Source: Streptomyces sp. NBC_01439 (lineage in GTDB: Bacteria; Actinomycetota; Actinomycetes; Streptomycetales; Streptomycetaceae). From it: DNA of 64,000 nucleotides. Position 1 is the first letter of the stretch. Each line of letters begins with the position of its first letter. The notes under the pieces were generated by a model. It worked only from the letters and a program-made list of their open reading frames with translations. It had not been told where the DNA came from and searched no databases. Position numbers and translations under genes: made by a program. The stretch is taken from assembly GCF_036227605.1 (NCBI RefSeq), contig NZ_CP109487.1, positions 7,923,001 through 7,987,000 on the forward strand, read 5' to 3'. Positions 31,842 through 46,525 of the stretch are shown here, piece after piece.

Positions 31842-33223
31842 GCGGCGGCCGCCGGCGGCTCGGCCGGGTCTGGCGCAGGCGCGGCCCCCTGCGCACCCGG
31901 CTGGCGCTGTCGGTCACCGCCGCCGTGGCCCTCGTGGCCGTCGGGGTGTGCGCGGCGGCGTTCCTGGTGGTCCGGTCCGCGCTCTACGAGCAGCTCGACC
32001 TCAGCCTCACCCAGTCCGCGCGGCTGGCCGCCCAGCGCAACCCGGGGGCCGCGCCGGGCACCCTGGCCGGGGAATGCCGGTTCCTGGCGGCCCCCGCCTG
32101 CGCGGAGGTGGTGGCGGCCGACCCGGCCGAGGATCCCGCGACCCGGGGACTGCTGCCCGTGGACCCGGCCGCGCGGGAGGTCGCCGCGGGCCGGAAGGCC
32201 CCCTACTACACCAACATCACGGTGGCCGGACATCCCGCCCGGATGCTCACCACCGACTACGCCAAGGGGCGCGCCCTCCAGGTGGCCCTGCGGGCCGACA
32301 CCGTCGAGGACGGCATCGAGGAGGCAGCCCAATGGCTGGTGCTGACGGCGGTGATCGGCGTGGTGCTGGCCGCCCTCCTGGGGTCCTGGGTCTCGCGGAC
32401 CGGCCTGGCCCCGGTCACCCGGCTCACCGCGACGGCCGAGCGGATCGCCGCCACCCGCGACGCACGGCACCGGATCGAACTGCCGCCACCGGGGCGGGAG
32501 GACGAGATCACCCGGCTGGCCACGAGCTTCAACACCATGCTGGGGGAGCTCGAACAGTCGATCGCCGCACAGCGCCAACTGGTCGCGGACGCCTCCCACG
32601 AGCTGCGCACCCCGCTGACGGCGCTGCGGACCAATGCCGAACTGCTGGCCCGGGCCGATCGGCTCACCCCCGACCAGCGCGACCGCGCCTCGGCCGCGCT
32701 GGGGCGGCAGCTGCGGGAAGTGACGGGGCTCGTGGGAGACCTGATCGAGCTGGCACGCGACGAAGAGCCGCAGCCGCTGGTGGAACAGGTCCGGTTGGGT
32801 GCGCTGGTGGAGCACTGCGCGCAGGCGGCGCGCACGCACTGGCCGGCCGTTCCCTTCCACGTACGCGTGCCGGACGGGCCCGTCGTGGTGCCCGGGGTAC
32901 CCGCGCGACTCAGCCGACTGCTGGGGAACCTGCTCGACAACGCGGCCAAGTTCAGCGGGAACGGGCTGCCCGTCGAGGTGGAGCTGGTGGCGGGCTCCCC
33001 CGGCCGGGGACCGCAGCTGACGGTCCGTGACCACGGGCCGGGGATCTCGCCGGACGACCTGCCGCACGTCTTCGACCGCTTCAACCGGGCCGGAGCGGCC
33101 CGCGCCCTGCCGGGGTCGGGACTCGGCCTCGCCATGGCCCGGCAGATCGCGCGGGCGCACTCCGCCGAGCTGACGGCGGAGGCCGCGCCGGGCGGGGGCG
33201 CGTTGTTCCGACTGGTGTTCTGA
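31838..33223 (+). CDS. sensor histidine kinase, partner of the OmpR regulator
   Basis: This is a 461-residue membrane kinase. Two transmembrane helices (about residues 22-45, LALSVTAAVALVAVGVCAAAF, and about 168-188, LVLTAVIGVVLAALLGSWV) bracket an extracytoplasmic sensor domain of about 120 residues with two Cys (GECRFLAAPACAE) that could form a disulfide. A HAMP linker (TGLAPVTRLTATAERI) leads to the HisKA site ADASHELRTPLTALRTN (His about 254). The ATPase domain has N-box NLLDNAAKFS, G1 DHGPGIS, F-box FDRFNR and G2 GSGLGLAMARQI. It shares an operon with the regulator by a 4-nt overlap. Confidence 0.93.
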   Translation: MSGGRRRLGRVWRRRGPLRTRLALSVTAAVALVAVGVCAAAFLVVRSALYEQLDLSLTQSARLAAQRNPGAAPGTLAGECRFLAAPACAEVVAADPAEDPATRGLLPVDPAAREVAAGRKAPYYTNITVAGHPARMLTTDYAKGRALQVALRADTVEDGIEEAAQWLVLTAVIGVVLAALLGSWVSRTGLAPVTRLTATAERIAATRDARHRIELPPPGREDEITRLATSFNTMLGELEQSIAAQRQLVADASHELRTPLTALRTNAELLARADRLTPDQRDRASAALGRQLREVTGLVGDLIELARDEEPQPLVEQVRLGALVEHCAQAARTHWPAVPFHVRVPDGPVVVPGVPARLSRLLGNLLDNAAKFSGNGLPVEVELVAGSPGRGPQLTVRDHGPGISPDDLPHVFDRFNRAGAARALPGSGLGLAMARQIARAHSAELTAEAAPGGGALFRLVF

Positions 33224-33358
33224 ACGGGGCCGGCCGGGACCGGAGCATTCGGTCCGGCTCGTCCCTCGCGTCCCGGTCGGGTGGGACGCAGGAGGCCGCC
33301 GCGCTCCCTGTGGCAGCTTTCCGATGCCATCAGGTCACCAGCGAAAGGCCGTCTCGGC

Positions 33359-33523
33359 ATGCGCATCTCCCGCCCCGGGAAGGGCGTTGCCCCGCTCCTC
33401 CTCGCCGCGTCCGCCGTCGGCGCGCTGCTGGTCACCGCCCCGCGACGGCTCGTTCGGCCCCAAGACCGAGGCGGCCGTGCAATCAAGACCCGGGGCTACC
33501 TCCTCCCTGCCGCGGAGGGCTAG
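33359..33523 (+). pseudogene. decayed secreted peptidoglycan-binding-domain gene
   Basis: ATG 33359 has a GAAAGG site and begins a good signal peptide (MRISRPGKGVAPLLLAASAV...LLVTAP). After about 28 codons the sense switches frame: from 33444, in the +1 frame, comes DGSFGPKTEAAVQS, the unmistakable repeat of the peptidoglycan-binding domain 1 family. The stretch that should join signal peptide and repeat is deleted, and a second indel follows the repeat. The remaining sequence 33224-33358 and 33524-33675 shows no other gene. It would originally have encoded a small wall-binding secreted protein. Confidence 0.65.
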
Positions 33524-33675
33524 GTCGTCTTCTTCAGATCATCCGGTCGACCGTCGACGTGTGTCGTTGGCTGACGCTTGTGATCTTCGGCCCAGTCTCC
33601 AGTAGCACCCTCCGTCGGGCGGCCGACCTGAGGCAAGGTGACCGGTGAGGAGTCCGCAGACGGGGGAGAGATCTG

Positions 33676-34476
33676 ATGGAGCGGCACGTCGAGTTCGAAC
33701 GTCTGCACAACTTCCGGGACCTGGGCGGCTACCGGTCCGCCGACGGTCGCACCGTGCGGTGGGGGACCGTGTACCGGGCCGACTCGCTCGGCAAGCTGGC
33801 GGGCGGCGACTGGGAGCGGTTCCTGGAGCTCGGGATCGGGACCGTGATCGACCTGCGGTATCCGTGGGAGATCGAGGCCAAGGGGCGGGTGCCCGAGGCG
33901 GAGCGCTTCCGCTACGTCAACCTGAGCATCGAGCACCGGCCGTACGACCAGGCCGAGATCGATCCGGACATCGACCCCTGGCGGTACCTCGCGGACCGGT
34001 TCGCCGAGGTCACCGAGGACGGGGCCGAGGAGATACGGCAGGTGCTGGAGGAGCTGGCGCAGGCCCCCGGCCCCCTGGTGTTCCACTGCACCTCGGGCAA
34101 GGACCGGACCGGGCTCATCGGGGTCTTCCTGCTGACCCTGCTCGGGGTGGACCGGGCGGACGTCCTCGCGGACTTCGCGCTCACCGAGCTGGCCACCGAG
34201 CGGCTCGCCGCCGACTGGCGGGCCGCCAACTCGGGGCGGGTGATGAAGTGGCCGAGCTACGGCCGTGCCCCCGCAGTGATCATGGAGTTGGTGCTCGCGG
34301 ACCTGGAAGCCCGGTACGGATCCGTGCACGGGTACCTCACCGACCGGGTCGGGCTGTCGGAGGGGACCGCGCAGCGGTTGCGTTCCCGCCTGCTGACCGG
34401 CACCGGCACCGGCACCGGCACCGGCGACGACGGGGGCACCGGCCACGACGGGGGCGAGGGCCACCGCGCGACGTGA
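33676..34476 (+). CDS. tyrosine-protein phosphatase (PTP/DSP-like lipid-tyrosine phosphatase)
   Basis: The product is 266 residues. It has the bacterial PTP signature: N-terminal LHNFRDLGGYRSADGRTVRWG with an FRADSL-like YRADSLGKL, an IDLRYPWE strand, and the P-loop HCTSGKDRTG (C-x5-R, about residues 136-145). The K-D next to the Cys resembles the MptpB/LipA subgroup, which can also act on phosphoinositides. The C-terminus ends in a low-complexity GT/GD tail encoded by a GGCACC hexamer repeat (about 34398-34425). No partner kinase is adjacent. The monocistronic location gives no clue to substrate. Confidence 0.88.
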   Translation: MERHVEFERLHNFRDLGGYRSADGRTVRWGTVYRADSLGKLAGGDWERFLELGIGTVIDLRYPWEIEAKGRVPEAERFRYVNLSIEHRPYDQAEIDPDIDPWRYLADRFAEVTEDGAEEIRQVLEELAQAPGPLVFHCTSGKDRTGLIGVFLLTLLGVDRADVLADFALTELATERLAADWRAANSGRVMKWPSYGRAPAVIMELVLADLEARYGSVHGYLTDRVGLSEGTAQRLRSRLLTGTGTGTGTGDDGGTGHDGGEGHRAT

Positions 34477-34545
34477 AGTCGCTCTAGTGGCGCCACGGCG
34501 CGTCTCCTACCATCGGAGCACGGGGTGGGGGAGGGGGGTGCGTTC

Positions 34546-35490
34546 GTGGCAGCGCACGTAGGGCGGCTGGAACGCTTCGTGGCCTGGGTGCTGCGGAACG
34601 TCGACGTCGTGGTCGCCCTGGGCATCGCGATGGCGGTCGGACTCCTCGACATCTTCGGAGACGTCATCAGTGACGACGTCTCCTCCGGTGCCACCCTCGT
34701 CGTGCTCGGCCTCCTCGCGACCGGGTCGATCGTGGAGCGGGTGCGCCGGCCCGCGAGCATCCAGGAGGCGATGAGCGGGACCCGGCAGGCCCTGGAAGAC
34801 CTGGCGATGGTGCGCTCGCTCTCCGGCAACGAGGTCGGCGAGGCACTGCGCAAGGCCCGTCAGCACACCAATCTCTGGTACTTCAAGGGCGGTACGGGCA
34901 CCTACCTGCGGGCGGTCACGCTGCCCCTGTGCGTGGCCGCCGCGAAGGAACAGCGCTCGCAGCTCAACGTGAAGATCGACATCGTCAATCCGGCCGACGA
35001 GCGGGCCTGCGCCGCGTACGCCCGGTTCCGGCAGATGTTCGGCGGGCAGCGTCGCGGCGACGACGTGTGGACCACCGACCGGGTCCGTCGGGAGTCGTAC
35101 GCGACCGTCCTCGCCGCCTGCTGGTACCAGCGGCAGTTGACCACGCTGGAGATCAGCGTGCACTTGTCGGCCGCCGTGCCGACGCTGCGCTTCGACCTGT
35201 CCGAGACCTGCCTCGTCATCACCCAGGACGACCAGTCCCGGGTGAACCTGCTGGTGGAGCGCGGGCAGCCGCTCTACGACTACTACGTGACCGAGTTGCA
35301 CCAGAGCCGCGAGCAGGCCACCGTGCTCGATCTGCGCGTCGCCTCCCCGCTCGGCCAGGAGCCCACCGTCGACGAGGTGCGGACGCTCTTCGACGACCTA
35401 CGGCTGCCCTTGCCGCGCGTCTTCACCGACAGCGACATCGGCAAGATCATCGAAAAGGCCCTGCACGCGGAGGACCCCTACAGGAGGTGA
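34546..35490 (+). CDS. two-TM membrane protein of unknown function (first gene of a three-gene cassette)
   Basis: The product is 314 residues from GTG 34546, chosen because GGAGGGG lies 9 nt upstream; GTG 34525 is an alternative. Two N-terminal hydrophobic helices (VVVALGIAMAVGLLDIF and GATLVVLGLLATGSIV) precede a cytoplasmic domain that starts TNLWYFKGGTGTYLRAVTLP (about residue 105) and ends with VYTDSDIGKIIEKAL-like FTDSDIGKIIEKAL. I do not recognise the domain. The arrangement of a 2-TM anchor and a compact domain resembles effector proteins of bacterial conflict systems, but that is analogy only. The cupin-like gene starts 20 nt downstream and the phosphatase gene follows. Confidence 0.75.
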   Translation: MAAHVGRLERFVAWVLRNVDVVVALGIAMAVGLLDIFGDVISDDVSSGATLVVLGLLATGSIVERVRRPASIQEAMSGTRQALEDLAMVRSLSGNEVGEALRKARQHTNLWYFKGGTGTYLRAVTLPLCVAAAKEQRSQLNVKIDIVNPADERACAAYARFRQMFGGQRRGDDVWTTDRVRRESYATVLAACWYQRQLTTLEISVHLSAAVPTLRFDLSETCLVITQDDQSRVNLLVERGQPLYDYYVTELHQSREQATVLDLRVASPLGQEPTVDEVRTLFDDLRLPLPRVFTDSDIGKIIEKALHAEDPYRR

Positions 35491-35509
35491 TGCGCTCCGG
35501 CGCGTGCCC

Positions 35510-36133
35510 ATGGACCGCGAGCTCGAAACCACCCTCGTCACCCTGGAGGAAATCGCCTCCGGGGCAAGGGAGTTACATGCTGTCCGTCATCCGCTCGGAT
35601 TCCTCTGCCTGCCACTGCTGAGAGAGGGGCCGCGCGGAATCTGCGTGCATCTCTTCGAGATCGGCAACCGTGCCGATCCGGAGGCGTCACCGATGCACGC
35701 CCACAGTTGGGAACTGCGCAGCCGCGTGCTGTACGGGCGGGTGGCGAACCTCCCCGTACGGACGAGCGCGGTGCGGGACGGCGAGGAGGGCGCCACTCAC
35801 CGGGTCTTCGAGGTGTTCAGCGGGAGCGACGGCGTGGACGAGATCCGGCCGACCCCCCTCCTGGTGCGGAGCGAGCCCGGCCCCGCCCACGTCAGCGCGG
35901 GCGGCCAGAGGTACACCCTGGCGGCCGGCGAGTTCCACGCCACCGCGCTGGAGGGCGTGGAGCCCGCGGCCACCCTGGTGCACGGCACGTCGATCCCCGG
36001 GCAGCTCGACCTCTCGCTCGGCCCGCTCGACGGCCGGCCGCGCCGCACGACCCGCCGGCTGTGCGACACCGCGCAGACCGTGCGCAGCGTCCACACCGTC
36101 CTCAGGAGGATCGATGCCGAGCAGCGGGCCTGA
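35510..36133 (+). CDS. cupin-like protein of unknown function
   Basis: The product is 207 residues from ATG 35510; an in-frame GTG at 35504 is possible. The AGGAGG at 35482-35487 is rather far, so the start is uncertain. The sequence PMHAHSWELRSRVLYGRVAN, GQRYTLAAGEFHAT and ATLVHGTSIPGQ suggests a double-stranded beta-helix (cupin or cysteine-dioxygenase-like) with His residues placed for a metal. Codon 22 is TTA (35573-35575), implying bldA dependence. It overlaps the phosphatase-like gene by 20 nt. Function is unknown; the conserved coupling suggests it acts with its neighbours. Confidence 0.72.
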   Translation: MDRELETTLVTLEEIASGARELHAVRHPLGFLCLPLLREGPRGICVHLFEIGNRADPEASPMHAHSWELRSRVLYGRVANLPVRTSAVRDGEEGATHRVFEVFSGSDGVDEIRPTPLLVRSEPGPAHVSAGGQRYTLAAGEFHATALEGVEPAATLVHGTSIPGQLDLSLGPLDGRPRRTTRRLCDTAQTVRSVHTVLRRIDAEQRA

Positions 36134-36944
36134 TTTCGACCACGAGAGGCGGGTCGCCGTCGCCGCGGCGGAGGAGGCGGGCGGCCTGCTGCGCACGCGT
36201 TTCGGCACGGCGCGGTGCGTGCGGACGAAGGGCGGGTCCGGGGACGTGCAGGTGGACCTCGACCTCGCCGCCGAGGAGCTCGTGCTCGGCCGGATACGGC
36301 GCCACTTCCCGCACGACCGGATCCTGTCCGAGGAAGCCGGGCTGCTCGAGGCTGCGGGCGAACGGACCTGGCTGGTCGACCCGTTGGACGGCAGCAACAA
36401 CGTCGTGATCGGGCTGCCCACCTACGCCGTCGGGATCGGATTGTGCCTGGGTGGCAACCCCGTGATGGGAGTGGTGCACGAGCCGGTCACCGGGGAGACC
36501 TGGCACGCGGTCAGGGGGTACGGGGCCCAGGGGCCGTCCGGCGCGCTGCCCGGCCCCGACCCCGCCCTGCCGCGCCCCGGCCCCGTCGTCGCCTGGACCC
36601 AGGGGTACGCCGTGGAACGGGGCGACGTGACGGCGGTGGCCCTGCGCGCGGTGCTGGAGCTGCGCTGCCGGCGCGTCCTGCAACTGTGGGCGCCGCTGCT
36701 CGGCTGGAGCCTGCTGGCGCGCGGCACCATCGACGCCTTCGTCGGCTACCGCGCCGAGGGCGTGGACCTGCCGACCGGGGCGCTGCTCGCGGCCGAGGCG
36801 GGCGTGGAGCTGCGCACGCTGTCCGGGACGACCTTCAGACCCGGCTTCGCCGGGGCCGACACCGGGCGCAGCTTCGTGGCGGCGCGCGGCGAGACCCTCG
36901 CGTACCTGCTGGGGGAGGTGGGGGCCGTCACCCCGGGAGCCTAG
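36114..36944 (+). CDS. inositol monophosphatase-family phosphatase
   Basis: The product is 276 residues from ATG 36114, with CAGGAGG at 5 nt. Mg-dependent IMPase motifs are present: SEEAGLLE (about residue 70), WLVDPLDGSNNVVIGLPTYAV (motif A; about 86, usual form W-x-x-D-P-x-D-G-T-x-N), and YRAEGVDLPTGALLAAEAGVEL (motif B variant, with Asp kept; about 213-234). Substrates in this family include inositol phosphates, 3'-phosphoadenosine 5'-phosphate and fructose 1,6-bisphosphate, so a nucleotide or signalling phosphate is possible. It closes a three-gene cassette with the 2-TM and cupin-like proteins. Its TAG stop shares CTAG with the convergent permease gene. Confidence 0.82.
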   Translation: MPSSGPDFDHERRVAVAAAEEAGGLLRTRFGTARCVRTKGGSGDVQVDLDLAAEELVLGRIRRHFPHDRILSEEAGLLEAAGERTWLVDPLDGSNNVVIGLPTYAVGIGLCLGGNPVMGVVHEPVTGETWHAVRGYGAQGPSGALPGPDPALPRPGPVVAWTQGYAVERGDVTAVALRAVLELRCRRVLQLWAPLLGWSLLARGTIDAFVGYRAEGVDLPTGALLAAEAGVELRTLSGTTFRPGFAGADTGRSFVAARGETLAYLLGEVGAVTPGA

Positions 36945-38152
36945 GTCGTGGCCGCCAGCGCCAGCGTCGCCGCCAGGGTGCCCGCCACCGCCAGCACGAG
37001 GCCCGTACCGAAGAAGCGGCCCAGGTCGATCCGGGTGCCGTGCCAGCGGCAGCGCTCGAACCACAGGAGGGTGGCCAGCGAGGCCCACGGCGTGATGACC
37101 GGTCCCACGTTGACGCCGATCAGCTGGGCGAGCAGCTGCTCGTGGTTGGCCACCGGGATCGCCGCCTCGCCCGCCAGGTAGGCCGGGAGGTTGTTCAGCA
37201 CGTTCGAGAAGCCCGCGCCGACCGCCGCCGACCGCAGCATTCCGACGACGTCGTTGTCCGAGCCCATCGCCGCCGCGAGGATCTCGTGCAGTCCGTGGGC
37301 GTTGACCGTCTCCACGACCAGGAACATTCCCGGGACCAGGACGAGGAGCCGCCAGGGGATCAGGGACAGGCGCAGCGCCTCGCGGCCCCGCACCCAGAAG
37401 GCCACGACCACGATCAGCGCGGCCGCCATCGACGCCGACCACAGCGGCACGTCGGCGAGCAGGATCGCCAGCAGGAACCCGGCGCACGCCACCGCGCTCA
37501 CCCGGAACAGGACCGGATCCGCGGGGCGCGGCAGGGGCGGAGGGACGTACCGGGTCTCGGCGCGGCGCCCGGGGCGCCAGTAGAAGACCCACAGGCAGGC
37601 CATCGTGACCGCGATGGCGGCCAACTGCGGCGCCCACATGGTGGCGGCCATCTCCGACGGGGTCAGCGCGATGCGGTCCGCGGCCAGCAGGTTCGTCAGG
37701 TTCGATACGGGAAGCAGCAGGCTGGCCGTGTTCGCGAGCCACACCGTGGTCATCGCCAGCGGTACGGGTGCGATGCCGACCCGGGTCGCCAGCGCCAACA
37801 TCACCGGGGTGAGCAGGACCGCCGTCGTGTCCAGGTTGAGGGTGATGGTGGTGACGGAGGCGAACAGCACGCAGAGGCAGAAGAGGAGCGGGTACCTGCC
37901 GCGCCCCGCCCGGGCCACCCAGGTGGCGACGACGTCGAAGACCTCCGCCTTGCCGGTCAGCTCGGCGAGGACGATGACGGTCGCGAGGAACACCACCAGC
38001 GGACCGATGCGCTCCAACACGTCCGCGGCGGGTCCTGTGGGCAGCAGGCCCGTGGCGACGCACAGCGCACCGAGTGCGAGCAGGCCGCCGGCCAGCCAGT
38101 CCAGTGGATGCAGACGCCTGAGGAGGGACACGGCGAACAGGTTCGCACACAC
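36941..38152 (-). CDS. SLC13/ArsB-type permease
   Basis: This 403-residue membrane protein has about 11 hydrophobic segments, starting LDWLAGGLLALGALCVATGL. Family traits include LVVFLATVIVLAELTGKAEVFD, the segment TITLNLDTTAVLLTPVMLAL, and the repeat-related SNVLNNLPAYLAG, both of which carry the N-x-x-x-T/P hairpin motif of ion-transporter superfamily members such as ArsB and citrate or dicarboxylate permeases. Start is GTG 38152; GTG 38131 is possible and neither has a strong ribosome site. No ArsR or ArsC gene is near, so an arsenite role is not supported; an organic-anion substrate is equally likely. Confidence 0.82.
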   Translation of the reverse strand: MCANLFAVSLLRRLHPLDWLAGGLLALGALCVATGLLPTGPAADVLERIGPLVVFLATVIVLAELTGKAEVFDVVATWVARAGRGRYPLLFCLCVLFASVTTITLNLDTTAVLLTPVMLALATRVGIAPVPLAMTTVWLANTASLLLPVSNLTNLLAADRIALTPSEMAATMWAPQLAAIAVTMACLWVFYWRPGRRAETRYVPPPLPRPADPVLFRVSAVACAGFLLAILLADVPLWSASMAAALIVVVAFWVRGREALRLSLIPWRLLVLVPGMFLVVETVNAHGLHEILAAAMGSDNDVVGMLRSAAVGAGFSNVLNNLPAYLAGEAAIPVANHEQLLAQLIGVNVGPVITPWASLATLLWFERCRWHGTRIDLGRFFGTGLVLAVAGTLAATLALAATT

Positions 38153-38250
38153 GCACGCCCCGACATCAGACGGGGCGGAAGGAATCGGACAGGTCCGCCC
38201 GGGCGGGGTGTCCGACGCCCCGCGGGAGACCGTCCCGTCCTTGCCGGGAC

Positions 38251-38281
38251 AAACCCGCCGCCGGGGGTGCGGCCCTACGAT
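38251..38281 (+). promoter_or_regulatory. predicted promoter of the TIR-NACHT-WD40 gene
   Basis: TTGCCG (38251-38256), a 19-bp spacer and TACGAT (38276-38281) lie upstream, the -10 ending 6 nt before ATG 38288. This fits a leaderless mRNA. A GGAG at 38282-38285 could instead serve ATG 38291. Confidence 0.4.
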
Positions 38282-38287
38282 GGAGTC

Positions 38288-41200
38288 ATGATGACGGACG
38301 GGCAATTCGGCGCTCCCGCAAGAGAGTTCGACTTCTTCATCAGTTACTCCCCGGCAGACGAGCAATGGGCCGCCTGGATCGCCTGGACCCTGGAGGAAGC
38401 CGGTTACCGCACGGTGGTGCAGGCCTGGGACTTCGTACCGGGAACCAACTTCATAGACTTCATGGACCGGGGGGTCAGCGAGTCCCTGGCGGTCATCGCC
38501 GTACTGTCCCGCCACTACGAGCGTTCCACCTACGGTCGCATGGAATGGCAGGCCGCGCTCCGGGCCTCGCCCGAGTCGCCCGAACGGAGGTTGCTGACCG
38601 TCCGGGTGGACGAGATCCCGATCGAGGGACTCCTCGCCACGATCACCTACGTCGACCTCGTCGGCGTGGCGGACATCGATGCGGCCCGCTCCCTGCTGCT
38701 CAACCGGGTCGGGCAGGCCGTCGACGGCCACGCCCGACCGGGTCGCCGTCCCGGCTTCCCGGGAACCGGGAGCGGGAGCGGGCCGGGACCCGTCCGGCAC
38801 CCGGAGCAGCCCAATCCGGGGCAGCCGCAGCCGAGCGCGCTCGCCGGCCCCGGCTGGTCGGGACGCCGGCGGCCCGCCAGGGCGCCGCTCTACCCGCAGG
38901 CCGCCGCGGCCGGCCACCGGGCCCGGGACACGGTGACCGTCCTGCACCTGGCCGGCCCCGACTTCGGGCGCGGCCGCGAACCCGACTCGCTCAGCCGGCA
39001 GATCCGCGGCGACCTCATCATGCTCAGGGACGCCGGGGCACCCGCCCCCGACCTGATGGTGGTCACCGGTGACCTCACCGCCTCCGGCAGCCCGCGCGAA
39101 TGCGATCAGGCCCTCACCTTCCTCACCGCCCTGCGCTCCCAGCTCGACCTGTCCCCCCAGCGGGTGATGGTGGTACCGGGCGCACAGGACGTGAACCGGG
39201 CCGCGTCCCAGGCCTACTTCCACACCTGCGAGGCCGACGAGGTGGCACCCCAGCCGCCGTACTGGCCCAAATGGCGCCACTACACCCGGCTGTTCCGCGG
39301 CCTCTACCAGGGCCTGGACACGGTCTTCGACAGCGACCAGCCCTGGACCCTCTTCCCGGTGCCCGAACTGAGCACGGTCGTGGCGGGATTCAACTCCTCC
39401 ATGGCCTACAGCCACCGCGCCGAGGAGCAGTACGGCTTCATCGGCCGCGACCAGGCCGCCTGGTTCGCCGAGGCCATGCGCCGGTACGAGGAGGAGGGCT
39501 GGCTGCGCATCGGCGCGCTCCGCCACCCGCTCACCGACGGCCGCCGCCCCGGCGACGCGGTCGGCGGCCCCGGCGGGCTGCGGGACGTCGACACCTTCGC
39601 CCGACTGGCCGCCCCGCGGCTCCACCTGCTGCTCCACGGGCCGACCGGCGGCCCGCGCACCACCACCTCGGCCCCCAGCCGCACCCAGCTCGCCGGGGCT
39701 CCAGGGGCCACAGGGTCTCCAGGTGCCACAGGGGGTCCAGGAGCGCCAGGGCCTTCCCCGACGTCCGGGGGCGCCGGTGAGCTGCCCCTGTTCGGCTCGG
39801 CGGCCCCCGCCAGGTTCCAGTTGCTCCAGGTCGGTGCCGAGGGCGTGACCCGCTGGGACGACCGGATCACCTCCGTGTCCGAGAGCTTCCCCGCCACCTG
39901 GCGGCAGACCCGCCGGGTCTTCCCCGTACCGGAACTCCCCGCCGTCATCAACGTCGAGCGGGCCGGCGGCCGGGCTCCCCTGGACGACCCGGCCGCCTCG
40001 CTCGCCGAACGGGTGAAGGAGATCTGCCGCGTGCGCCGGGAGGGCGTACGGCTGCGCGACGTCCCGCGCCGCGAACCCGGCGACATGGTGCAGATCATGG
40101 CCACCTGGCGGGAACAGGAGGACGGCGTCGTCCAACAACAGCGCATAGCCGTCCACCCCGGGAGCCCCACCGAGGAGGAAGTCGACCGCTTCATCGCCCA
40201 GGTGCACGCGACCGACACCGGCTCCGAAGCCGTCCTGGTGTACGCGGGCGACGCACCGGCCGGCGGCCTGCGCCGCCGGGCCGCCGCCCACGGCGTCCGG
40301 GTCCGGGTCCGCAGCTTCATCGAGTTCCAGGGCCTGCTCGACCTCCGGGGCTACGTCGCCGCGCAGACGGCCCGGCTGAGCAGCAGCGAGCAGTACGCCC
40401 CCGGCCTCTACCTGCCCCAGCGCTACCGCGACGCCGACCGCCCCGACGGCCAGGACGGTGCCGTCCAAGAACGCGACGGACTCGTCGAGGAACTGCTGGA
40501 GCTCCTGGAGTCCGACCACGGCCGGTTCGTCCTGCTCCTCGGCGACTTCGGACACGGCAAGACCTTCGCGCTGCGCGAGCTCGCCCGGCGCATCTCCGAA
40601 CAGCTCCCGCACCTGACCCCGCTGCTGATCCCGCTCAACTCCCTCGACCGGGCGCACAGCCTCGAAGGCCTGGTCGCCGCGCACCTGGCCGGCCACGACG
40701 TCGACACCATCGACCTGCGGGCCCTGCGCTACATGCTCGCCCAGGGCCGCGTCGTCCTGCTCTTCGACGGCTTCGACGAACTGGTCAACCGGGTCAGCTA
40801 CGACCGGGCCGCCGACCACCTCCAGGTCCTCCTCGACGCGGCCGTCGACCACGCCAAGATCGTCGTCAGCAGCCGCACCCAGCACTTCAAGTCGCACGCC
40901 CAGGTCCTCACCGCACTCGGCGAGCGCGTCGGCCTGCTCCCGCAACGCAGGATCCTGGCCGTCGAGGGGTTCACCCCCGCCCAGATCCGCTCCTACCTCG
41001 TACGCAGCTACGGCGACGAGCGCGCCGCCGACCGCCGCTACCAGCTCCTGCGCAACATCCCCGACCTGTTGATGCTGTGCCGCAATCCCCGGCTGCTCTC
41101 CTTCGTCGCCGATCTGAGCCAGGACCAGCTGCGCGCGGTCGCCGGAGCGGGCCGGGCGCTCAGCCCCGCCCGGCTGTACGAGGACGTGTTCACCTCCTGG

Positions 41201-44200
41201 CTCGACCACGAGGAACGGCGCGGCCAGGGCGGGCCCGGCGCGCCGCCCGGGCTCACCATCGACCAGCTGTGGGCCGCGGTCACCGCACTGGCTTGGCGGC
41301 TGTGGGAGAGCGGCCGCAGCGCCCTGCGGCTCGACGAGCTCACCGAGACCGTGGCCGGCACCCTCAGCGAACTCACCGAGTCCCCGCTCACCCCCTCCGA
41401 GCGCGCCCAGGCGGTCGGTGCGGGCAGCCTGCTGGTCCGCAGCGACGACGGGGTCTTCCAGTTCATCCACGGTTCCGTCATCGAATGGCTGGTGGCGCGC
41501 GAGGCCGCCCGCCAGCTCGCCCGCGGACAGCACACCCTGCTCCTCGCGCGCCCGCTCAGCCAACTCGCCGTCGAGTTCTTCTGCGACCTCGCCGACCACG
41601 AGCAGTGCGCCCGCTGGGTGCGCGACGTCCTCGACGCCCCGGGGCGGGCGGTCAGCGAGGCCGCCCGAGCCAACGCCGTCCGGATCTCCGACCGGCTGCG
41701 GGTGCCGGCCAACGCCGACCTGCGCGGCGCCCGGCTGGCCGGTGAGGACCTCTCGCACCGCGACTTCTCCGGGGTCGACCTCTCCGACGCCGATCTGACG
41801 GACGCCCGGCTGATCGGCGCCAACCTCTCCGGCGCGCTGCTGCGGGGCACCCGGCTGATCGGCTCCCGCTTGGACGGGGCCGACCTGAGCGGGGCCGACC
41901 TGACCGGCGCGAACCTCAGCCGGTCCCGGCTGACCCGGACCGATCTGCGGGGCGCCCTGCTGACCGGAAGCCGCTGGCACCGGGCCGCGCTCATCGACAC
42001 GACGATGGATGACGCGGTGCGGTCGGCCCCCGAGCTCGGGACCGCCGCGATCGCCCCCGGGATGCCCGTGGACGCCGGGTTCCGGCCCTCCGCCGTCGGG
42101 GTCCCGTACGGCTTCGGCATGCGCACCAGCCGCCTGCCCGAACCCATCGCTTACAGCAGCGACGGCGAACTCCTCGCGGTGGGCAGCGAGGACGGCTCCG
42201 TCCTGGTCTGCGGCGCCGACGACGGCCGCGCCGTGCGCACCCTCCAGGGGCACGAAGGGCGCGTGTACGCGGTGAAGTTCCGGCCGGACGTCATCGCCAC
42301 CGGTGGCTCCGACGGCGCGGTGCGGCTCTGGGACCCCGTGACCGGGGCGTGCCGGCACCACCTGCGGGTCCATCCCGACGGCGTGTGGCCGGTCTCCTTC
42401 GACGCGGACGGCACGCTGCTCGCCACCGGCGACAGCGAGGGCCTGGTCACGGTCTGGGACACGGCCACCGGCCAGCCCGTGCACCGGCTGCCGGGCCACA
42501 CCGCGCCCGTCTACACCGCGGTCCACGGACCGGACGGGCTGCTGCTCACCGGGGACGCGGGCGCCAAGGTACGGCTCTGGGACCTGAACACCGGGCACTG
42601 CGTCCGGGAGGTGGACGGCCACCAGGGGGCCGTCTACCGGGCCCGGTTCAGCCCCGACGGGACCCTCTTCGCCACCGCCGACCGGGGCGCGCCCGGGCAG
42701 GGCGGCACCGTGCGGATCTGGCGGACGGCCGACGCGCAGCTGCTGCACGAGTTCACCGGACACACCGGCCGCGTCTACGTCCTCGACTTCCACCCCGAGG
42801 GCAACCTCCTCGCCAGTGGCGACACCGACGGTCAGGTGCGGCTCTGGGACCCGGTGGTCGGCACCCCCGCCGGAATCCTCGAACGGGGTACCGGAGCCGT
42901 CTACCAGGTGCTCTTCGGCGACGACGGGAAGCTCCTCGCGGCTTGCGACAGCAACGGTGCGGTCCGGCTGTGGACGGTCACCGGCCGCCCCCACGGGTAC
43001 ACGATCGCCCTCCACCCCCAGCAGCCGACCGAGCACCGCGGCACGGCCTGGGCGTGCGCCTTCCGGCCCGGCGACAGCCAATTGCTCACCGTCGGCAACG
43101 ACGGCGGCGCGCAGATCTGGGACGCGGCCACCGGCCAGGGCAAGCGCATCCTGCGCGGCCACGGCCGCCGGATCAGCGGTGTCGCCTTCAGCTCGGACGG
43201 CACGCAGCTGGCCACGGCCGGGAACGACGGGGTCGTGCGGCTGTGGGAGACGCGCACGGGCCGGCGTACGGAAGAGCTCACCGGGCGCGGCGACCGGTTG
43301 GTCTCGGCGGCCTTCAGCCCCCTCGAAGCCCTCCTGGCCACGGCCAGCAACGACGGCGACATGTACCTCTGGGACCCGGTGGGCGGCGAGTACTTGAGGG
43401 AGCTCGACGCCGAGACCGAACACGTCTGGGCGGAGGCCTTCAACGCCGACGGGGCCCTGCTCGCCACCGCCAACGACGACGATTCCGTACGCGTCTGGTT
43501 CCGCCCCACGGGTTCCCCCGTGTCGACGCTGACCGAGCACCGGGGCCGGGTCCGTTCGATCGCCTTCCGCTCGGACGCCGACGTACTGGCCACCGGCTGC
43601 GACGACAGTTTCGTACGGGTGTGGGACGCCAGGAGCGGAGCCCTCGTGGAGCAACTCGGCGGGCACGCCGACCGGGTGTACGGCGTCGCGTACGGACCGG
43701 GGAGCGCCTGGCTCGCCAGCGCGAGCTGGGACGGTACGGCCGTCGTCTGGCGGGACGGGCGGGCGGACCTGCGCCTGCGCGGACGCGGCGGCAGGCTGTG
43801 GGCGGTGGCCGCCCACCCTGGCCGCCCGCTGCTGGCCACCGGCGGCGACGACCGGGCCGTCGGCCTGTGGGACGCCGAGACGGGCGAGCACCTCACCGAC
43901 CTCGTCGGTCACACCGGCCGGGTGCTCTCGCTCGCCTTCTCCCCGGACGGCACGACCCTGGCGAGCGGGGCCGAGGACGGCACCGTACGGCTGTGGAACG
44001 TCCCGGCGGACGGGGAACCGCCCTCCCTGCGCGCGACGCTGATGGGCATGGCGGGCGGCTGGGCGGCCCTCACACCGGCCGGCGGATACAAGTACGAGGG
44101 TGACGTGGCCGGCGAGTTCTGGCACGTCGTGGGCATGTCCCGGTTCACCCCGGGGGAGCTCGACGAGCACCTGCCGGGCATCCACCGACTGCCGCTCGGC

Positions 44201-44212
44201 GAGGAACTCTGA
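38288..44212 (+). CDS. TIR / degenerate phosphoesterase / NACHT NTPase / pentapeptide / WD40 protein (NLR-like)
   Basis: The product is 1,974 residues. In order: a TIR domain (about 13-140: FDFFISYSPADEQW, VVQAWDFVPGTNF, then STYGRMEW whose Glu fits the NADase catalytic site); a calcineurin-like phosphoesterase fold (about 215-420) with VVTGDLTASG kept but D-x-H and G-N-H-D replaced (HLAGPDFG, VPGAQDVN); a linker region (about 600-700) that looks nuclease- or receptor-like but is not identified; a NACHT ATPase (Walker A GDFGHGKTF about 752, Walker B VVLLFDGFDEL about 821); winged-helix-type segments; pentapeptide repeats (about 1140-1242, ADLRGA, ADLSGADLTGANL); about 15 WD40 repeats (about 1288-1914, two propellers); and a C-terminal GGYKYEGDVAGEFWHVVGMSRF module. 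The likely role is ligand sensing by WD40, oligomerisation by NACHT, and NAD depletion by TIR, in the manner of bacterial anti-phage NLRs. Confidence 0.88.
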   Translation: MMTDGQFGAPAREFDFFISYSPADEQWAAWIAWTLEEAGYRTVVQAWDFVPGTNFIDFMDRGVSESLAVIAVLSRHYERSTYGRMEWQAALRASPESPERRLLTVRVDEIPIEGLLATITYVDLVGVADIDAARSLLLNRVGQAVDGHARPGRRPGFPGTGSGSGPGPVRHPEQPNPGQPQPSALAGPGWSGRRRPARAPLYPQAAAAGHRARDTVTVLHLAGPDFGRGREPDSLSRQIRGDLIMLRDAGAPAPDLMVVTGDLTASGSPRECDQALTFLTALRSQLDLSPQRVMVVPGAQDVNRAASQAYFHTCEADEVAPQPPYWPKWRHYTRLFRGLYQGLDTVFDSDQPWTLFPVPELSTVVAGFNSSMAYSHRAEEQYGFIGRDQAAWFAEAMRRYEEEGWLRIGALRHPLTDGRRPGDAVGGPGGLRDVDTFARLAAPRLHLLLHGPTGGPRTTTSAPSRTQLAGAPGATGSPGATGGPGAPGPSPTSGGAGELPLFGSAAPARFQLLQVGAEGVTRWDDRITSVSESFPATWRQTRRVFPVPELPAVINVERAGGRAPLDDPAASLAERVKEICRVRREGVRLRDVPRREPGDMVQIMATWREQEDGVVQQQRIAVHPGSPTEEEVDRFIAQVHATDTGSEAVLVYAGDAPAGGLRRRAAAHGVRVRVRSFIEFQGLLDLRGYVAAQTARLSSSEQYAPGLYLPQRYRDADRPDGQDGAVQERDGLVEELLELLESDHGRFVLLLGDFGHGKTFALRELARRISEQLPHLTPLLIPLNSLDRAHSLEGLVAAHLAGHDVDTIDLRALRYMLAQGRVVLLFDGFDELVNRVSYDRAADHLQVLLDAAVDHAKIVVSSRTQHFKSHAQVLTALGERVGLLPQRRILAVEGFTPAQIRSYLVRSYGDERAADRRYQLLRNIPDLLMLCRNPRLLSFVADLSQDQLRAVAGAGRALSPARLYEDVFTSWLDHEERRGQGGPGAPPGLTIDQLWAAVTALAWRLWESGRSALRLDELTETVAGTLSELTESPLTPSERAQAVGAGSLLVRSDDGVFQFIHGSVIEWLVAREAARQLARGQHTLLLARPLSQLAVEFFCDLADHEQCARWVRDVLDAPGRAVSEAARANAVRISDRLRVPANADLRGARLAGEDLSHRDFSGVDLSDADLTDARLIGANLSGALLRGTRLIGSRLDGADLSGADLTGANLSRSRLTRTDLRGALLTGSRWHRAALIDTTMDDAVRSAPELGTAAIAPGMPVDAGFRPSAVGVPYGFGMRTSRLPEPIAYSSDGELLAVGSEDGSVLVCGADDGRAVRTLQGHEGRVYAVKFRPDVIATGGSDGAVRLWDPVTGACRHHLRVHPDGVWPVSFDADGTLLATGDSEGLVTVWDTATGQPVHRLPGHTAPVYTAVHGPDGLLLTGDAGAKVRLWDLNTGHCVREVDGHQGAVYRARFSPDGTLFATADRGAPGQGGTVRIWRTADAQLLHEFTGHTGRVYVLDFHPEGNLLASGDTDGQVRLWDPVVGTPAGILERGTGAVYQVLFGDDGKLLAACDSNGAVRLWTVTGRPHGYTIALHPQQPTEHRGTAWACAFRPGDSQLLTVGNDGGAQIWDAATGQGKRILRGHGRRISGVAFSSDGTQLATAGNDGVVRLWETRTGRRTEELTGRGDRLVSAAFSPLEALLATASNDGDMYLWDPVGGEYLRELDAETEHVWAEAFNADGALLATANDDDSVRVWFRPTGSPVSTLTEHRGRVRSIAFRSDADVLATGCDDSFVRVWDARSGALVEQLGGHADRVYGVAYGPGSAWLASASWDGTAVVWRDGRADLRLRGRGGRLWAVAAHPGRPLLATGGDDRAVGLWDAETGEHLTDLVGHTGRVLSLAFSPDGTTLASGAEDGTVRLWNVPADGEPPSLRATLMGMAGGWAALTPAGGYKYEGDVAGEFWHVVGMSRFTPGELDEHLPGIHRLPLGEEL

Positions 44213-44258
44213 CGCCCCGAACGCTTGGCGGAGGTGGTCCCGGCTACGGTTGGTCCGC

Positions 44259-45176
44259 ATGACGCACACCGAAACAGAGGTCACCGCGGAGCTGGTCCGG
44301 GACCTGTTAAGCGACCAGCACCCCGACCTGGCGGACCGCCCCGTACGGTTCGGCGCCCGTGGCTGGGACAACCAGCTGTGGCGGCTCGGGGACGACCTCG
44401 CCGTCCGGCTGCCCTGGGCGACCCCGTCCGCGGACGCGCTGCTGCGCAAGGAGCACGCCTGGCTGCCCGCGCTCGCCCCGACCCTTCCCCTGCCCGTTCC
44501 CGTCCCGCAGCGCATCGGCGAACCCTCCGAGAGGTTCCCGCGCCCCTGGATCGTCACCACCTGGGTGCCCGGCGAGCCCGCCGACCGCGCCCCTGCCACG
44601 AAGGCCGGCGACGCGGCCGAAGCGCTGGCCGCCTTCCTGACGGCCCTCCACCGACCCGCTCCCGACGGGGCACCCGTCGGGAACCACGGTCGCGGGGGGC
44701 CGCTGGCGGACCTCGCCGACGGGTTCGCCGAGGGGCTCGCCTCGGCCACCGGGATGGGGCTGATCCCCGACCCGGACGCCGTCCGCGCGGTCTGGGAGGA
44801 CGCGGTCGCCGCACCCGTCTGGGAGGGTCCTGCGATGTGGCTCCACGGTGACCTCCATCCGGCCAACGTCCTCACCGCGGGCGGCACCTTCTGCGGCGTG
44901 ATCGACTTCGGTGACCTCTGCGCGGGCGATCCGGCCTGCGACCTCGCCGCCCCCTGGATCCTGCTGCCGGACGGCGCCGCCGACCGCTTCCACGCCGTCT
45001 ACCGGCCGACCCCGGACGAGGCCACGCTGCGCCGTGCCCGCGGCTGGGCCGTGCAGCGCGCCCTCGGCGGCATCCTCATCGGCGAGGCCGGCGTCCGCGG
45101 CCGACCGGGCGGCAAGCCCACCTGGGGCCCGCCCGCCCAGGCCACACTGCGCCGCCTCGTGGCGACGGCCGGCTGA
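44259..45176 (+). CDS. aminoglycoside phosphotransferase-family kinase (APH)
   Basis: This 305-residue kinase-like protein transfers phosphate to a small hydroxylated substrate. The motifs are RPWIVTTWVPGEPA (hinge), MWLHGDLHPANVL (catalytic loop H-G-D-x-x-x-x-N, about residue 196) and CGVIDFGDLCAGDPACDLA (metal-binding D-F-G equivalent, about 214). N-terminal ARGWDNQLWRLGDDLAVRLP carries the Lys-equivalent strand, here with Arg. Codon 17 is TTA (44307-44309), pointing to bldA-dependent translation and a developmental or secondary-metabolism role. A TACGGT hexamer ends 8 nt before the ATG and no ribosome site is present. Resistance function is possible but cannot be read from sequence. Confidence 0.86.
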   Translation: MTHTETEVTAELVRDLLSDQHPDLADRPVRFGARGWDNQLWRLGDDLAVRLPWATPSADALLRKEHAWLPALAPTLPLPVPVPQRIGEPSERFPRPWIVTTWVPGEPADRAPATKAGDAAEALAAFLTALHRPAPDGAPVGNHGRGGPLADLADGFAEGLASATGMGLIPDPDAVRAVWEDAVAAPVWEGPAMWLHGDLHPANVLTAGGTFCGVIDFGDLCAGDPACDLAAPWILLPDGAADRFHAVYRPTPDEATLRRARGWAVQRALGGILIGEAGVRGRPGGKPTWGPPAQATLRRLVATAG

Positions 45177-45188
45177 CCGGCGCCCGGA

Positions 45189-45944
45189 TCAGGCCTTCGG
45201 GAAGGCCAGCAGGGCCACCGGAGCCGAGGTCGGCTGCGGGGAGCCGCCGGCCGGTTCGACGGTGACGCCCATCCCCGAGGCCGTGTTGACCGGGCCGTCG
45301 AGGAGGGTGGCCGTCGCCGGGGCACCGCTGTCCATCAGCCCCGCCGAACGCATCTTCCCGCCGTCGTCGTACCAGAGCTGGTACACCTTCCCGCTGGGCG
45401 GCGCCGGCAGGCCGGAGGCAGCGAAGACCGCCTGGTTGCGGGCGGCCGACACGACCACCGTGCCCACCGCTCCGCCCCGCAGCGGCGCCGTGGTCACCCG
45501 GGCGTCGGCGGCCGCGAGGACCGAGCCGACGGCATCGTTCGTGAGTCGGGCCTGCTGCGCCTGCTGCCGGGCGTCCTCGGCCTGTTCGTACTGCGCCACC
45601 GCGACACCGCCGAGCGCCACGGCCCCCGCGATGCAGGCCGCCAGGGCCCAGCTCGGCACCGGCCGCCAGCGGGGTCGTACGTGGCCGCCGCGCGCGGCCC
45701 TGACCGTCGTGGGCCCCTCCTGGCGCACCGTCGCGATCCGGCGCATCACCTCGTCCCGCAGCGTGGCACTCGGCGGCGCCGCCACGGCGAGCCCGAGGCG
45801 CGTGACGGTCTCGGAGAACTCCCGGACCTCCTGCGTGCAGGACACGCAGTCGGCGAGGTGCCGCTCGACGGCGGCCCGCTCCTCCGGTTCCAGGGCGTCG
45901 AGCGCGTACGCGCCCGTCAACGTGTGCGGATCCGCGGCGTTCAC
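45189..45944 (-). CDS. rskA: anti-sigma-K factor RskA
   Basis: This 251-residue single-pass membrane protein holds an ECF sigma factor inactive. The N-terminal cytoplasmic zinc-type anti-sigma domain reads LTGAYALDALEPEERAAVERHLADCVSC (H-x-x-x-C-x-x-C). One helix spans the membrane (WALAACIAGAVALGGVAVA, about residues 99-117), then a short coiled stretch (EQAEDARQQAQQAR) and the RskA extracytoplasmic domain (AVFAASGLPAPPSGKVYQLWY). GTG 45944 overlaps the sigK stop (45943-45941), which fits stoichiometric co-expression. Release presumably needs regulated proteolysis as in mycobacteria. Confidence 0.92.
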   Translation of the reverse strand: MNAADPHTLTGAYALDALEPEERAAVERHLADCVSCTQEVREFSETVTRLGLAVAAPPSATLRDEVMRRIATVRQEGPTTVRAARGGHVRPRWRPVPSWALAACIAGAVALGGVAVAQYEQAEDARQQAQQARLTNDAVGSVLAAADARVTTAPLRGGAVGTVVVSAARNQAVFAASGLPAPPSGKVYQLWYDDGGKMRSAGLMDSGAPATATLLDGPVNTASGMGVTVEPAGGSPQPTSAPVALLAFPKA

Positions 45945-46525
45945 ACGCCCACCCCCAGACAGTCACGGAGCCGGATGAGCCCGTCGCGCAACCGTGTCTT
46001 CACGGTACCCAACGGTAGGGACAGCAACTCCGCGACCTCCCGGTGGGTCAGGCCGCGGTAGTACGCCAGGGTGACCGACTGGCGCTGCAGTTCGCTGAGT
46101 CCGTTCAGACAGCGCCGCACCTGTTCGCGTTCCAGCCGGGTCTCCACCTGCTCCACCACCTCGTCGTAGGCCGTGGTGTGGTCCAGCAGCGCCGCCCGCT
46201 TCTCGCGGTTGGTCGACGCCTGCGCGGAGCGCACCCGGTCGACGGCCCGGCGGTGGGCCAGGGTCAGCACCCAGTTCATCACCGAGCCCCGCGCGGGCTG
46301 GTAGCGGGCGGCGGTCCGCCAGAGCTCGACCAGTACTTCCTGGGCGACCTCCTCGGACTGGGCCGGGTCCCGCAGCACGGTCCGCACGAGGCCCAGCACC
46401 GGGCCCGACACCGCCTCGAAGACGGCCGTGAACGCCTGCTGATCACCGCGGGCCACTCGGCCCATCAGTTCCGGCAGGTCGGGAGCGGCCGACGGATGCC
46501 GGCCTATGCGCACGTTCTCTCTCAC
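45941..46525 (-). CDS. sigK: ECF sigma factor SigK
   Basis: The product is 194 residues from GTG 46525, with GGAGG at 9 nt. Region 2 (about 20-90) has AFTAVFEAVSGPVLGLVRTVL, EEVAQEVLVELWRTAARYQP and GSVMNWVLTLAHRRAVDRVRS. Region 4 (about 135-190) has LSELQRQSVTLAYYRGLTHREVAELLSLPLGTVKTRLRDGL, the ECF helix-turn-helix. It is in an operon with rskA, and the fasciclin lipoprotein gene is divergent, as in the mycobacterial sigK region. Its own promoter appears to share a palindromic -35 with the fasciclin promoter (46669-46680), so it should activate itself. Confidence 0.92.
   Translation of the reverse strand: MRENVRIGRHPSAAPDLPELMGRVARGDQQAFTAVFEAVSGPVLGLVRTVLRDPAQSEEVAQEVLVELWRTAARYQPARGSVMNWVLTLAHRRAVDRVRSAQASTNREKRAALLDHTTAYDEVVEQVETRLEREQVRRCLNGLSELQRQSVTLAYYRGLTHREVAELLSLPLGTVKTRLRDGLIRLRDCLGVGV

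Follow-up and report, generated by a model that had tools for sequence, protein, structure and literature searches.

Closest described systems

Among described systems, the proteins closest to the one considered here are EruA and HyoA, antiphage NACHT proteins of NCBIfam, which we take to be of the bNACHT/Avs class. The protein in question is the product of a giant gene (positions 38288 to 44212, forward strand) in a 64,000-nucleotide stretch of the Streptomyces sp. NBC_01439 genome, called the window below; the locus lies at 7.96 Mb on a single 9.58-Mb contig. A single open frame of 1,974 codons plus stop encodes a chain of 1,974 amino acids (aa), with TIR, pseudophosphoesterase, NA-iREase3, NACHT, pentapeptide and WD40 parts in this order. 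The giant shares the effector-NACHT-sensor order and intact Walker motifs with EruA and HyoA, but misses their curated cut-offs (24.5 bits against 1000 for EruA, 10.6 against 1200 for HyoA). It also differs from both in having a pseudophosphoesterase and an NA-iREase between the TIR domain and NACHT, as well as constant partner genes.

Other systems resemble individual parts of the locus. According to sections of PMC7159879 and PMC8195603, TIR, calcineurin and inactive enzyme domains are effectors or signal makers in conflict systems, many of which are actinobacterial; STAND NTPases occur there too, as do 2TM membrane effectors beside nucleotide-related ones. Sections of PMC7159879 also count trypsin-like peptidases among the parts of conflict systems; 'cupin' as a word is absent from its main text. 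In Thoeris with the TM-macro protein ThsA, as portrayed in parts of PMC11204291, a TIR gene is likewise accompanied by a membrane protein whose soluble domain may bind a ligand. Here, in contrast, the membrane protein folds like PLD (judged by fold comparison, so that an unlisted family is possible) and the TIR domain is contained in a giant STAND protein. For the MoxR-vWA/iSTAND ternary systems, the text portions considered hold no description of TIR plus calcineurin in one NACHT-WD40 chain or of the present cassette. The preliminary description of the window treated the layout as apparently undescribed. Our literature search agrees to the extent that neither the TIR-pseudophosphoesterase-iREase-NACHT layout nor the cassette was found in the text searched, while figures, tables or supplements may hold them. 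The layout is not rare, however, since a search with the middle part of the giant (residues 200-720) returned 468 proteins at E ≤ 0.001 among 7,986 scored candidates. NLR-like TIR-STAND proteins are known and NA-iREase3 already has a curated Pfam entry; what is new is the complete chain together with its constant four-gene entourage.

The giant gene travels with four partner genes

The giant gene was at first thought to stand alone, with no obvious partner. The genome scan keyed on the giant revealed otherwise: the same four partners lie beside it, with order and orientation unchanged, in all 19 loci found, and the stand-alone gene was rejected on these grounds. The cassette begins with a membrane protein (u34525), followed by a cupin-like protein, an inositol-monophosphatase (IMPase)-family phosphatase and a divergent ArsB/CitMHS permease, with the giant last. 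The scan loci include those of Sphaerisporangium, other Streptosporangiaceae, Amycolatopsis and Actinocorallia, and the cassette, conserved across orders, also occurs in Nonomuraea. From u34525 to the last propeller it spans 9.4-10.9 kb over 31 loci (30 distinct, L007 and L073 being the same contig); these were chosen as cassette loci and so do not form a test set. G010, G126, G056, the divergent relatives and the pair-only loci described below lie outside this set. In the flanks of the cassette loci, 88 of 168 open reading frames (ORFs) are singletons and clusters are shared almost only within clades, except for one small cluster that links Streptomyces locus L078 with non-Streptomyces loci.

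The linkage is matched by co-occurrence. Across 199 genomes of the genus, window included, the NA-iREase of the giant was detected in 14, u34525 (E < 1e-50) in 14 and both in 13 (Fisher p 2.4e-18, uncorrected for relatedness). All such presence counts are lower bounds, since only a limited set of candidates was scored in each genome scanned. The mismatches are G010, with the giant only, and G195, with a 37% relative of u34525 plus a cupin gene and no giant in the stretch. The lack of u34525 and cupin matches in G010 (L054) is not countable because 1,645 bases of that stretch are masked. All five genes are present in 12 of the 13 giant-bearing genomes whose loci were read, G010 being the exception; the fourteenth genome (G259), with its locus outside the 13, has the giant and u34525 on one contig. 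Seen from the partner side, a u34525-like gene occurs in 21 of 394 genomes of the class (the G000 entry being taken from the window). In 15 of these 21 genomes the giant is nearby, either complete or with at least its TIR end present, and in 20 a cupin gene is.

The five genes have also been lost together. The flanks of the locus in G039 are 86-89% identical to the window at the DNA level, but homology stops at 34597 and resumes at 44012. About 9.4 kb is gone, starting near codon 24 of u34525 and ending some 67 codons before the end of the giant, and the two homologous stretches meet within about 5 bp. One natural deletion in G039 disables or removes all five genes, leaving the outer ends. Because the giant travels with the same four partners and has been lost jointly with them in at least one relative, the data point to its being part of an uncharacterized multi-gene system, possibly an immune one. 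Related genomes without the cassette offer natural controls. The G039 scar (L071, contig 3, 3378-3520 and 3516-4095) lies between PTP and APH genes.

Linkage survives rearrangement, as G350 and G472 have the order u34525-cupin-IMPase-giant-permease, with the permease moved downstream. A 2H-phosphoesterase-like gene (Pfam match below cut-off) follows the permease in G350, G472 and G161. In G161 the giant, permease and cupin genes are present, the stretch examined yielded neither u34525 nor IMPase, and Macro-like (weak match) and NUDIX genes lie beside the cupin gene. On L066 (14172-19347, G161) the permease and the 2H-phosphoesterase-like gene follow the giant, and on L099 (10668-15118, G350) the same two genes are in turn followed by another TIR gene. 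In five genomes (G126, G056, G349, G487 and G384) the IMPase and permease genes are separated by about 5-12 kb of other sequence; in the genus of G126 and G349 the intervening genes look transporter- and biosynthesis-like (L059, 1798-7114; L097, 9087-13021).

Partial cassettes are of several kinds. G421 has u34525-cupin-IMPase and no giant within roughly 14 kb beyond, while only the u34525-cupin pair, with no giant in the fetched stretch, was found in G340 (L100), G447 (L104), G536 (L115) and G195 (L072). G421, G340, G447 and G536 are four of the six u34525-bearing class genomes in which no giant was counted; the other two are G463, whose stretch stops at a contig edge, and G527, which is broken. 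On the Rhodococcus opacus plasmid pCP135 (L083, 6001-8306) the gene for a trypsin-like protease precedes relatives of u34525 and of the cupin gene, so the pair may work with another partner there. Conversely, divergent relatives of the giant in G057, G139, G171, G150, G077 and G095 and the second G161 copy have none of the four partners within 13-20 kb (tblastn, E ≤ 1e-4). The pair of G195 adjoins a lower-G+C region that also holds a SIR2 gene.

Domain architecture of the giant protein

Profile searches bear out the TIR, calcineurin-like, NACHT, pentapeptide and WD40 parts that had been proposed for the 1,974-aa chain from sequence inspection; the calcineurin-like match is weak if taken alone. 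The TIR domain (38327-38722, residues 14-145; all domain coordinates are on the forward strand) matches Pfam TIR_2 on residues 16-135 with E 2.8e-34, above cut-off. The calcineurin-like pseudophosphoesterase (38933-39697, residues about 216-470) comes next. Between it and NACHT sits a domain that had been missed, NA-iREase3 (PF22739, E 1.1e-33; 39998-40345, residues 571-686), restriction-endonuclease-like and inactive by its Pfam description. The NACHT NTPase (40523-41005, residues about 746-906) is also above its Pfam cut-off, with E 1.2e-11. It is followed by pentapeptide repeats (41759-42022, residues about 1158-1245; Pfam E 1.3e-25 on residues about 1168-1242) and by WD40 propellers (42146-43999, residues about 1287-1904; Pfam E 1.6e-109). 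The latter comprise 15 repeat stretches, in agreement with the earlier estimate of about 15, and the best of them ends at residue 1904. With an N-terminal effector and C-terminal repeats in one chain, the giant has an NLR-like STAND layout, resembling that of immune sensors in plants and animals, in which the repeats would act as the sensor.

To assess conservation, we aligned 138 rows: the window, 120 listed of the 468 homologues and 17 of the 19 scan loci, a composition that makes the alignment lean to close relatives. The listed homologues are mostly about 1,950 aa long, many are named 'TIR domain-containing protein', and those with a named source come from Streptomyces, Kitasatospora and Embleya. 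The giant frame is broken by at least one frame change in L005, L019, L052 and L054, through either decay or sequencing error; L005 and L019 were left out of the alignment for this reason. The catalytic-type glutamate of the TIR domain, proposed from the motif STYGRMEW (starting at residue 80), is Glu86, and it is conserved in all 135 rows reaching that column; three rows (P0036, P0044 and P0070) lack the N-terminus. Walker A (GDFGHGKTF, residues 752-760) and Walker B (VVLLFDGFDEL, residues 822-832) had been described as intact, which holds for their residues in all 138 rows.

Median identity to the window among 117 relatives is 0.82 for TIR, 0.80 for NACHT, 0.72 for the phosphoesterase, 0.65 for WD40 and 0.56 for the iREase. 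The length of the WD40 part is nearly constant (618-675 aa, median 629). Given this identity and length, a hypervariable recognition propeller was rejected. Members of the NA-iREase3 family turned up in 10 of the 148 class genomes scanned, with five matches in G057 and three in G150, which is a paralogue pattern.

The calcineurin-like part is a fixed pseudoenzyme

Taken by itself, the Pfam Metallophos match of the giant is weak (E 0.022; its 15.6 bits are below the cut-off of 21.5). However, a family profile of residues 216-705 finds Rv0805 (E 0.001) and Lmo2642 (E 0.0021), two phosphoesterases of solved structure, and the NCBIfam 'anti-phage phosphoesterase' model DS9_1 matches residues 234-453 with E 3.2e-14, although with 52.7 bits against a cut-off of 420. 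The giant resembles the class III phosphodiesterases Rv0805 and Lmo2642 in profile and differs from them in metal ligands, which we presumed to follow the usual motif order of such enzymes. Only 1-3 of the 8 ligands are left in each of the 138 rows, in line with the degeneracy noted from the window alone. The Asp and His of motif 1 and both His residues of motif 5 are lost throughout, while the motif-2 Asp is kept in 136 rows and the motif-4 His in all 138. Since no row keeps more than three ligands, we consider the domain a fixed pseudoenzyme in the cassette clade, and an active phosphoesterase there was rejected.

In the phylogenetic tree of NACHT domains (45 rows, with the root set by hand on two rows without phosphoesterase), the cassette-type proteins together with G161a form a clade of 34 (support 100/100). 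Beside it are six phosphoesterase-bearing relatives, whose group support is only 88/88, and outside these are five rows without phosphoesterase. Among the six, the two proteins of G057 (L069, L070) stand out, as G057a retains 7 of the 8 ligands and G057b retains 5; the other four have 1 or 2. The simplest reading of the sequences would be that an active or near-active phosphoesterase was gained once and later decayed. This order is provisional because long branches meet among the divergent rows. Relatives without a phosphoesterase, with a near-intact one and with a degenerate one form a natural series that may trace the recruitment of a domain of this kind.

Properties of the partner proteins

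The first partner, u34525 (34525-35490, forward strand), is a membrane protein with a pseudo-PLD domain, recognized by hydrophobic N-terminal helices and by fold comparison. Two membrane helices were judged from sequence and model, and the length of homologues (314-316 aa) points to a start about 7 codons further in. Pfam, NCBIfam (above chance), PADLOC and PHROG offered no family for it, and the sequence search found no solved relative (best E 0.82). Fold comparison of the model lists PLD and TrmB folds. Unlike the TrmB sugar-binding domain and PLD-fold nucleases such as SauUSI and NucT, u34525 has hydrophobic N-terminal helices, and the HxK catalytic motif of PLD enzymes is absent from all 42 family sequences.

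The cupin-like gene (35510-36133, forward strand) starts 19 bp after u34525, and its product has a conserved HxH...H...H pattern. The assignment is based on these histidines and on the fact that some sources label relatives as cupin or cysteine dioxygenase; no profile match stands behind it, as the search gave no Pfam family and one weak PHROG match (E 4.6e-4, function unknown). No solved relative was found at E ≤ 1. A single TTA codon is present in this gene (window 35510-36133, codon 22). TTA codons are rare in Streptomyces and are often tied to developmental (bldA) control.

The IMPase-family gene (36114-36944, forward strand) overlaps the cupin gene by 20 bp; its best NCBIfam models are HisN, IMPase and CysQ, all under cut-off. 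The SLC13-like ArsB/CitMHS permease gene (36941-38131, reverse strand; alternative start 38152) is divergent from the giant.

Possible function of the cassette

Our preferred reading, held tentatively and at slightly below an even chance, makes the giant the sensor-switch of an NLR-like conflict module of five genes, in which the TIR domain would produce an NAD-derived output and the membrane protein would serve as receptor or effector. Sequence comparison provides its foundation, namely the domain order, intact NTPase motifs, invariant TIR glutamate, fixed pseudophosphoesterase and conserved cassette. Ligand sensing, NAD cleavage, signal reception and all roles of the cupin, IMPase and permease are putative. 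According to this model, the WD40/pentapeptide half would bind a danger signal, either endogenous or derived from an invader, NACHT assembly driven by ATP would cluster the TIR domains, and the clustered TIRs would cleave NAD, resulting in depletion and/or release of an ADP-ribose-type signal. The pseudophosphoesterase and the inactive nuclease-like domain would bind ligands, serve as decoys or regulate rather than catalyse. The membrane pseudo-PLD protein and its near-constant cupin companion could be the receptor or effector for the TIR-made signal, the IMPase (plus the 2H phosphoesterase in one family) might mature or remove phosphorylated signals, and the permease might move the product or restore ions. 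The reading is plausible in that TIR, calcineurin, inactive enzymes and 2TM proteins recur in conflict systems, as parts of PMC7159879 and PMC8195603 describe. It is also supported by nucleotide-type companions (2H, weak Macro and NUDIX in G161; 2H in G350 and G472), by patchy presence and the single-deletion loss in G039, by flanking genes that clades seldom have in common, by the u34525-cupin pair behind the trypsin-like protease of pCP135 and by several paralogues in single genomes.

If the conflict-module reading is true, the cassette is an actinobacterial multi-gene NLR-like system that PADLOC-DB 2.0.0 (2023) does not recognize. It would include a new kind of candidate membrane receptor, combining hydrophobic helices with a pseudo-PLD domain, and, placed between effector and switch, a former enzyme that has become a pseudoenzyme. 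A bolder version, which we find doubtful, is an undescribed immune system kept or lost as a unit, in which the NAD-derived signal would be read by the pseudo-PLD receptor and edited by the cupin and phosphatases. The receptor-cupin pair would then be a reusable output module, also serving the pCP135 protease, and the pseudophosphoesterase a captured enzyme turned bait or sensor.

A number of observations weigh against the conflict module. The first concerns genomic context, where an association with defence islands had been suggested as a check. We compared PADLOC models at E ≤ 1e-20 with 133 flank ORFs (100-900 aa) from 25 of the 31 loci; the ORFs were called by third-codon-position G+C (GC3), so their details may err. 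The 24 models matched, among them PD-T4-6, mad6, mad3, MkoA, C3a189 kinase and BrxHI, each hit at most two ORFs. This is weak evidence that the flanks lack clear defence-gene enrichment, as the threshold is strict and there is no control set; a count of this kind neither shows nor excludes a defence island. No PADLOC model spans most of the giant, and its best partial matches are HEAT-ARM_XIII on the WD40 repeats and bSEFIR on residues 16-78; for the four partners no model was matched at E ≤ 0.1. Phage records hold no relative of giant residues 1-1140, and viral contigs hold no close relative of these residues or of u34525. Plasmid records give only partial matches plus an 11.85-Mb Nonomuraea record. 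On the same records, we rejected the view that the locus is, in general, cargo of phages or plasmids. The WD40 part, at identity 0.65 against 0.80 for NACHT and with steady length, is not unusually variable, unlike a diversifying recognizer. The IMPase and permease look metabolic, the u34525-cupin pair occurs without the giant in the four pair-only genomes, and the signal-receptor step is drawn from analogy alone. Finally, in the PDB the TIR profile matches TLR and MyD88 chains best, and the giant's glutamate aligns with that of the top match, the TLR15/TLR2 chain 7ylf. TLR-type TIRs serve as scaffolds; since this scaffold chain has a Glu there too, the conserved residue is no proof of NADase activity. 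The evidence from flanks, viral records, propeller rate and TIR profile is the reason why two other readings, a stress or metabolic role and a scaffold role, keep some of their probability.

The better of the two, in our judgment unlikely yet a genuine contender, sees in the cassette a module for stress, nutrients or development, with the giant as a STAND hub that would sense the endogenous state and control phosphatase, cupin and permease, with no role against invaders. The metabolic look of the IMPase and permease, the ordinary pace of propeller evolution and the flanks without clear defence-gene enrichment all agree with it, and the TTA codon of the cupin gene would fit developmental control. 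It sits less well with the presence of the giant in just 14 of 199 genus genomes and its deletion in one relative (G039), with paralogue expansions elsewhere and with the invariance of the TIR glutamate and NACHT motifs. Should it be correct, an NLR architecture would be tied to a fixed set of metabolic-looking genes.

Somewhat less probable still is a signalosome-like arrangement, in which the TIR domain would be a scaffold and no enzyme, and the assembled giant would recruit the membrane pseudo-PLD protein to cause arrest or death at the membrane. The TLR and MyD88 matches speak for it, as do the near-constant partnership of the giant with the membrane protein, the loss of phosphoesterase ligands and a nuclease-like domain from a family described as inactive. 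The glutamate column, invariant in 135 of 135 rows, argues the other way: MyD88 alignments have another residue at this column, so scaffolds need not keep it. That the giant is a self-contained sensor-effector with bystander neighbours would fit the seven divergent relatives without any of the partners, but is very improbable given all partners in 19 of 19 loci, linkage after rearrangement and common loss.

Start of the giant gene and its upstream element

The frame of the giant is also open further upstream, giving a 2,665-aa ORF from 36215. The start at 38288 is supported because relatives begin at the same residues and an upstream element is conserved. In the preliminary description the gene was assigned its own promoter. 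A scan for sigma-70-type promoters gave no site in 34400-44400, a terminator scan at the locus found nothing, and Rfam at gathering scores gave no match in 33000-46000. An alignment of ten upstream regions, on the other hand, revealed a CCTACNATGG-like conserved element (38274-38290, forward strand). Its hexamer TANNNT (TACNAT in most rows) is kept in all ten regions, 6-7 nucleotides 5' of the giant ATG. The hexamer is a possible -10 element of a leaderless transcript, and its position would fit a leaderless mRNA.

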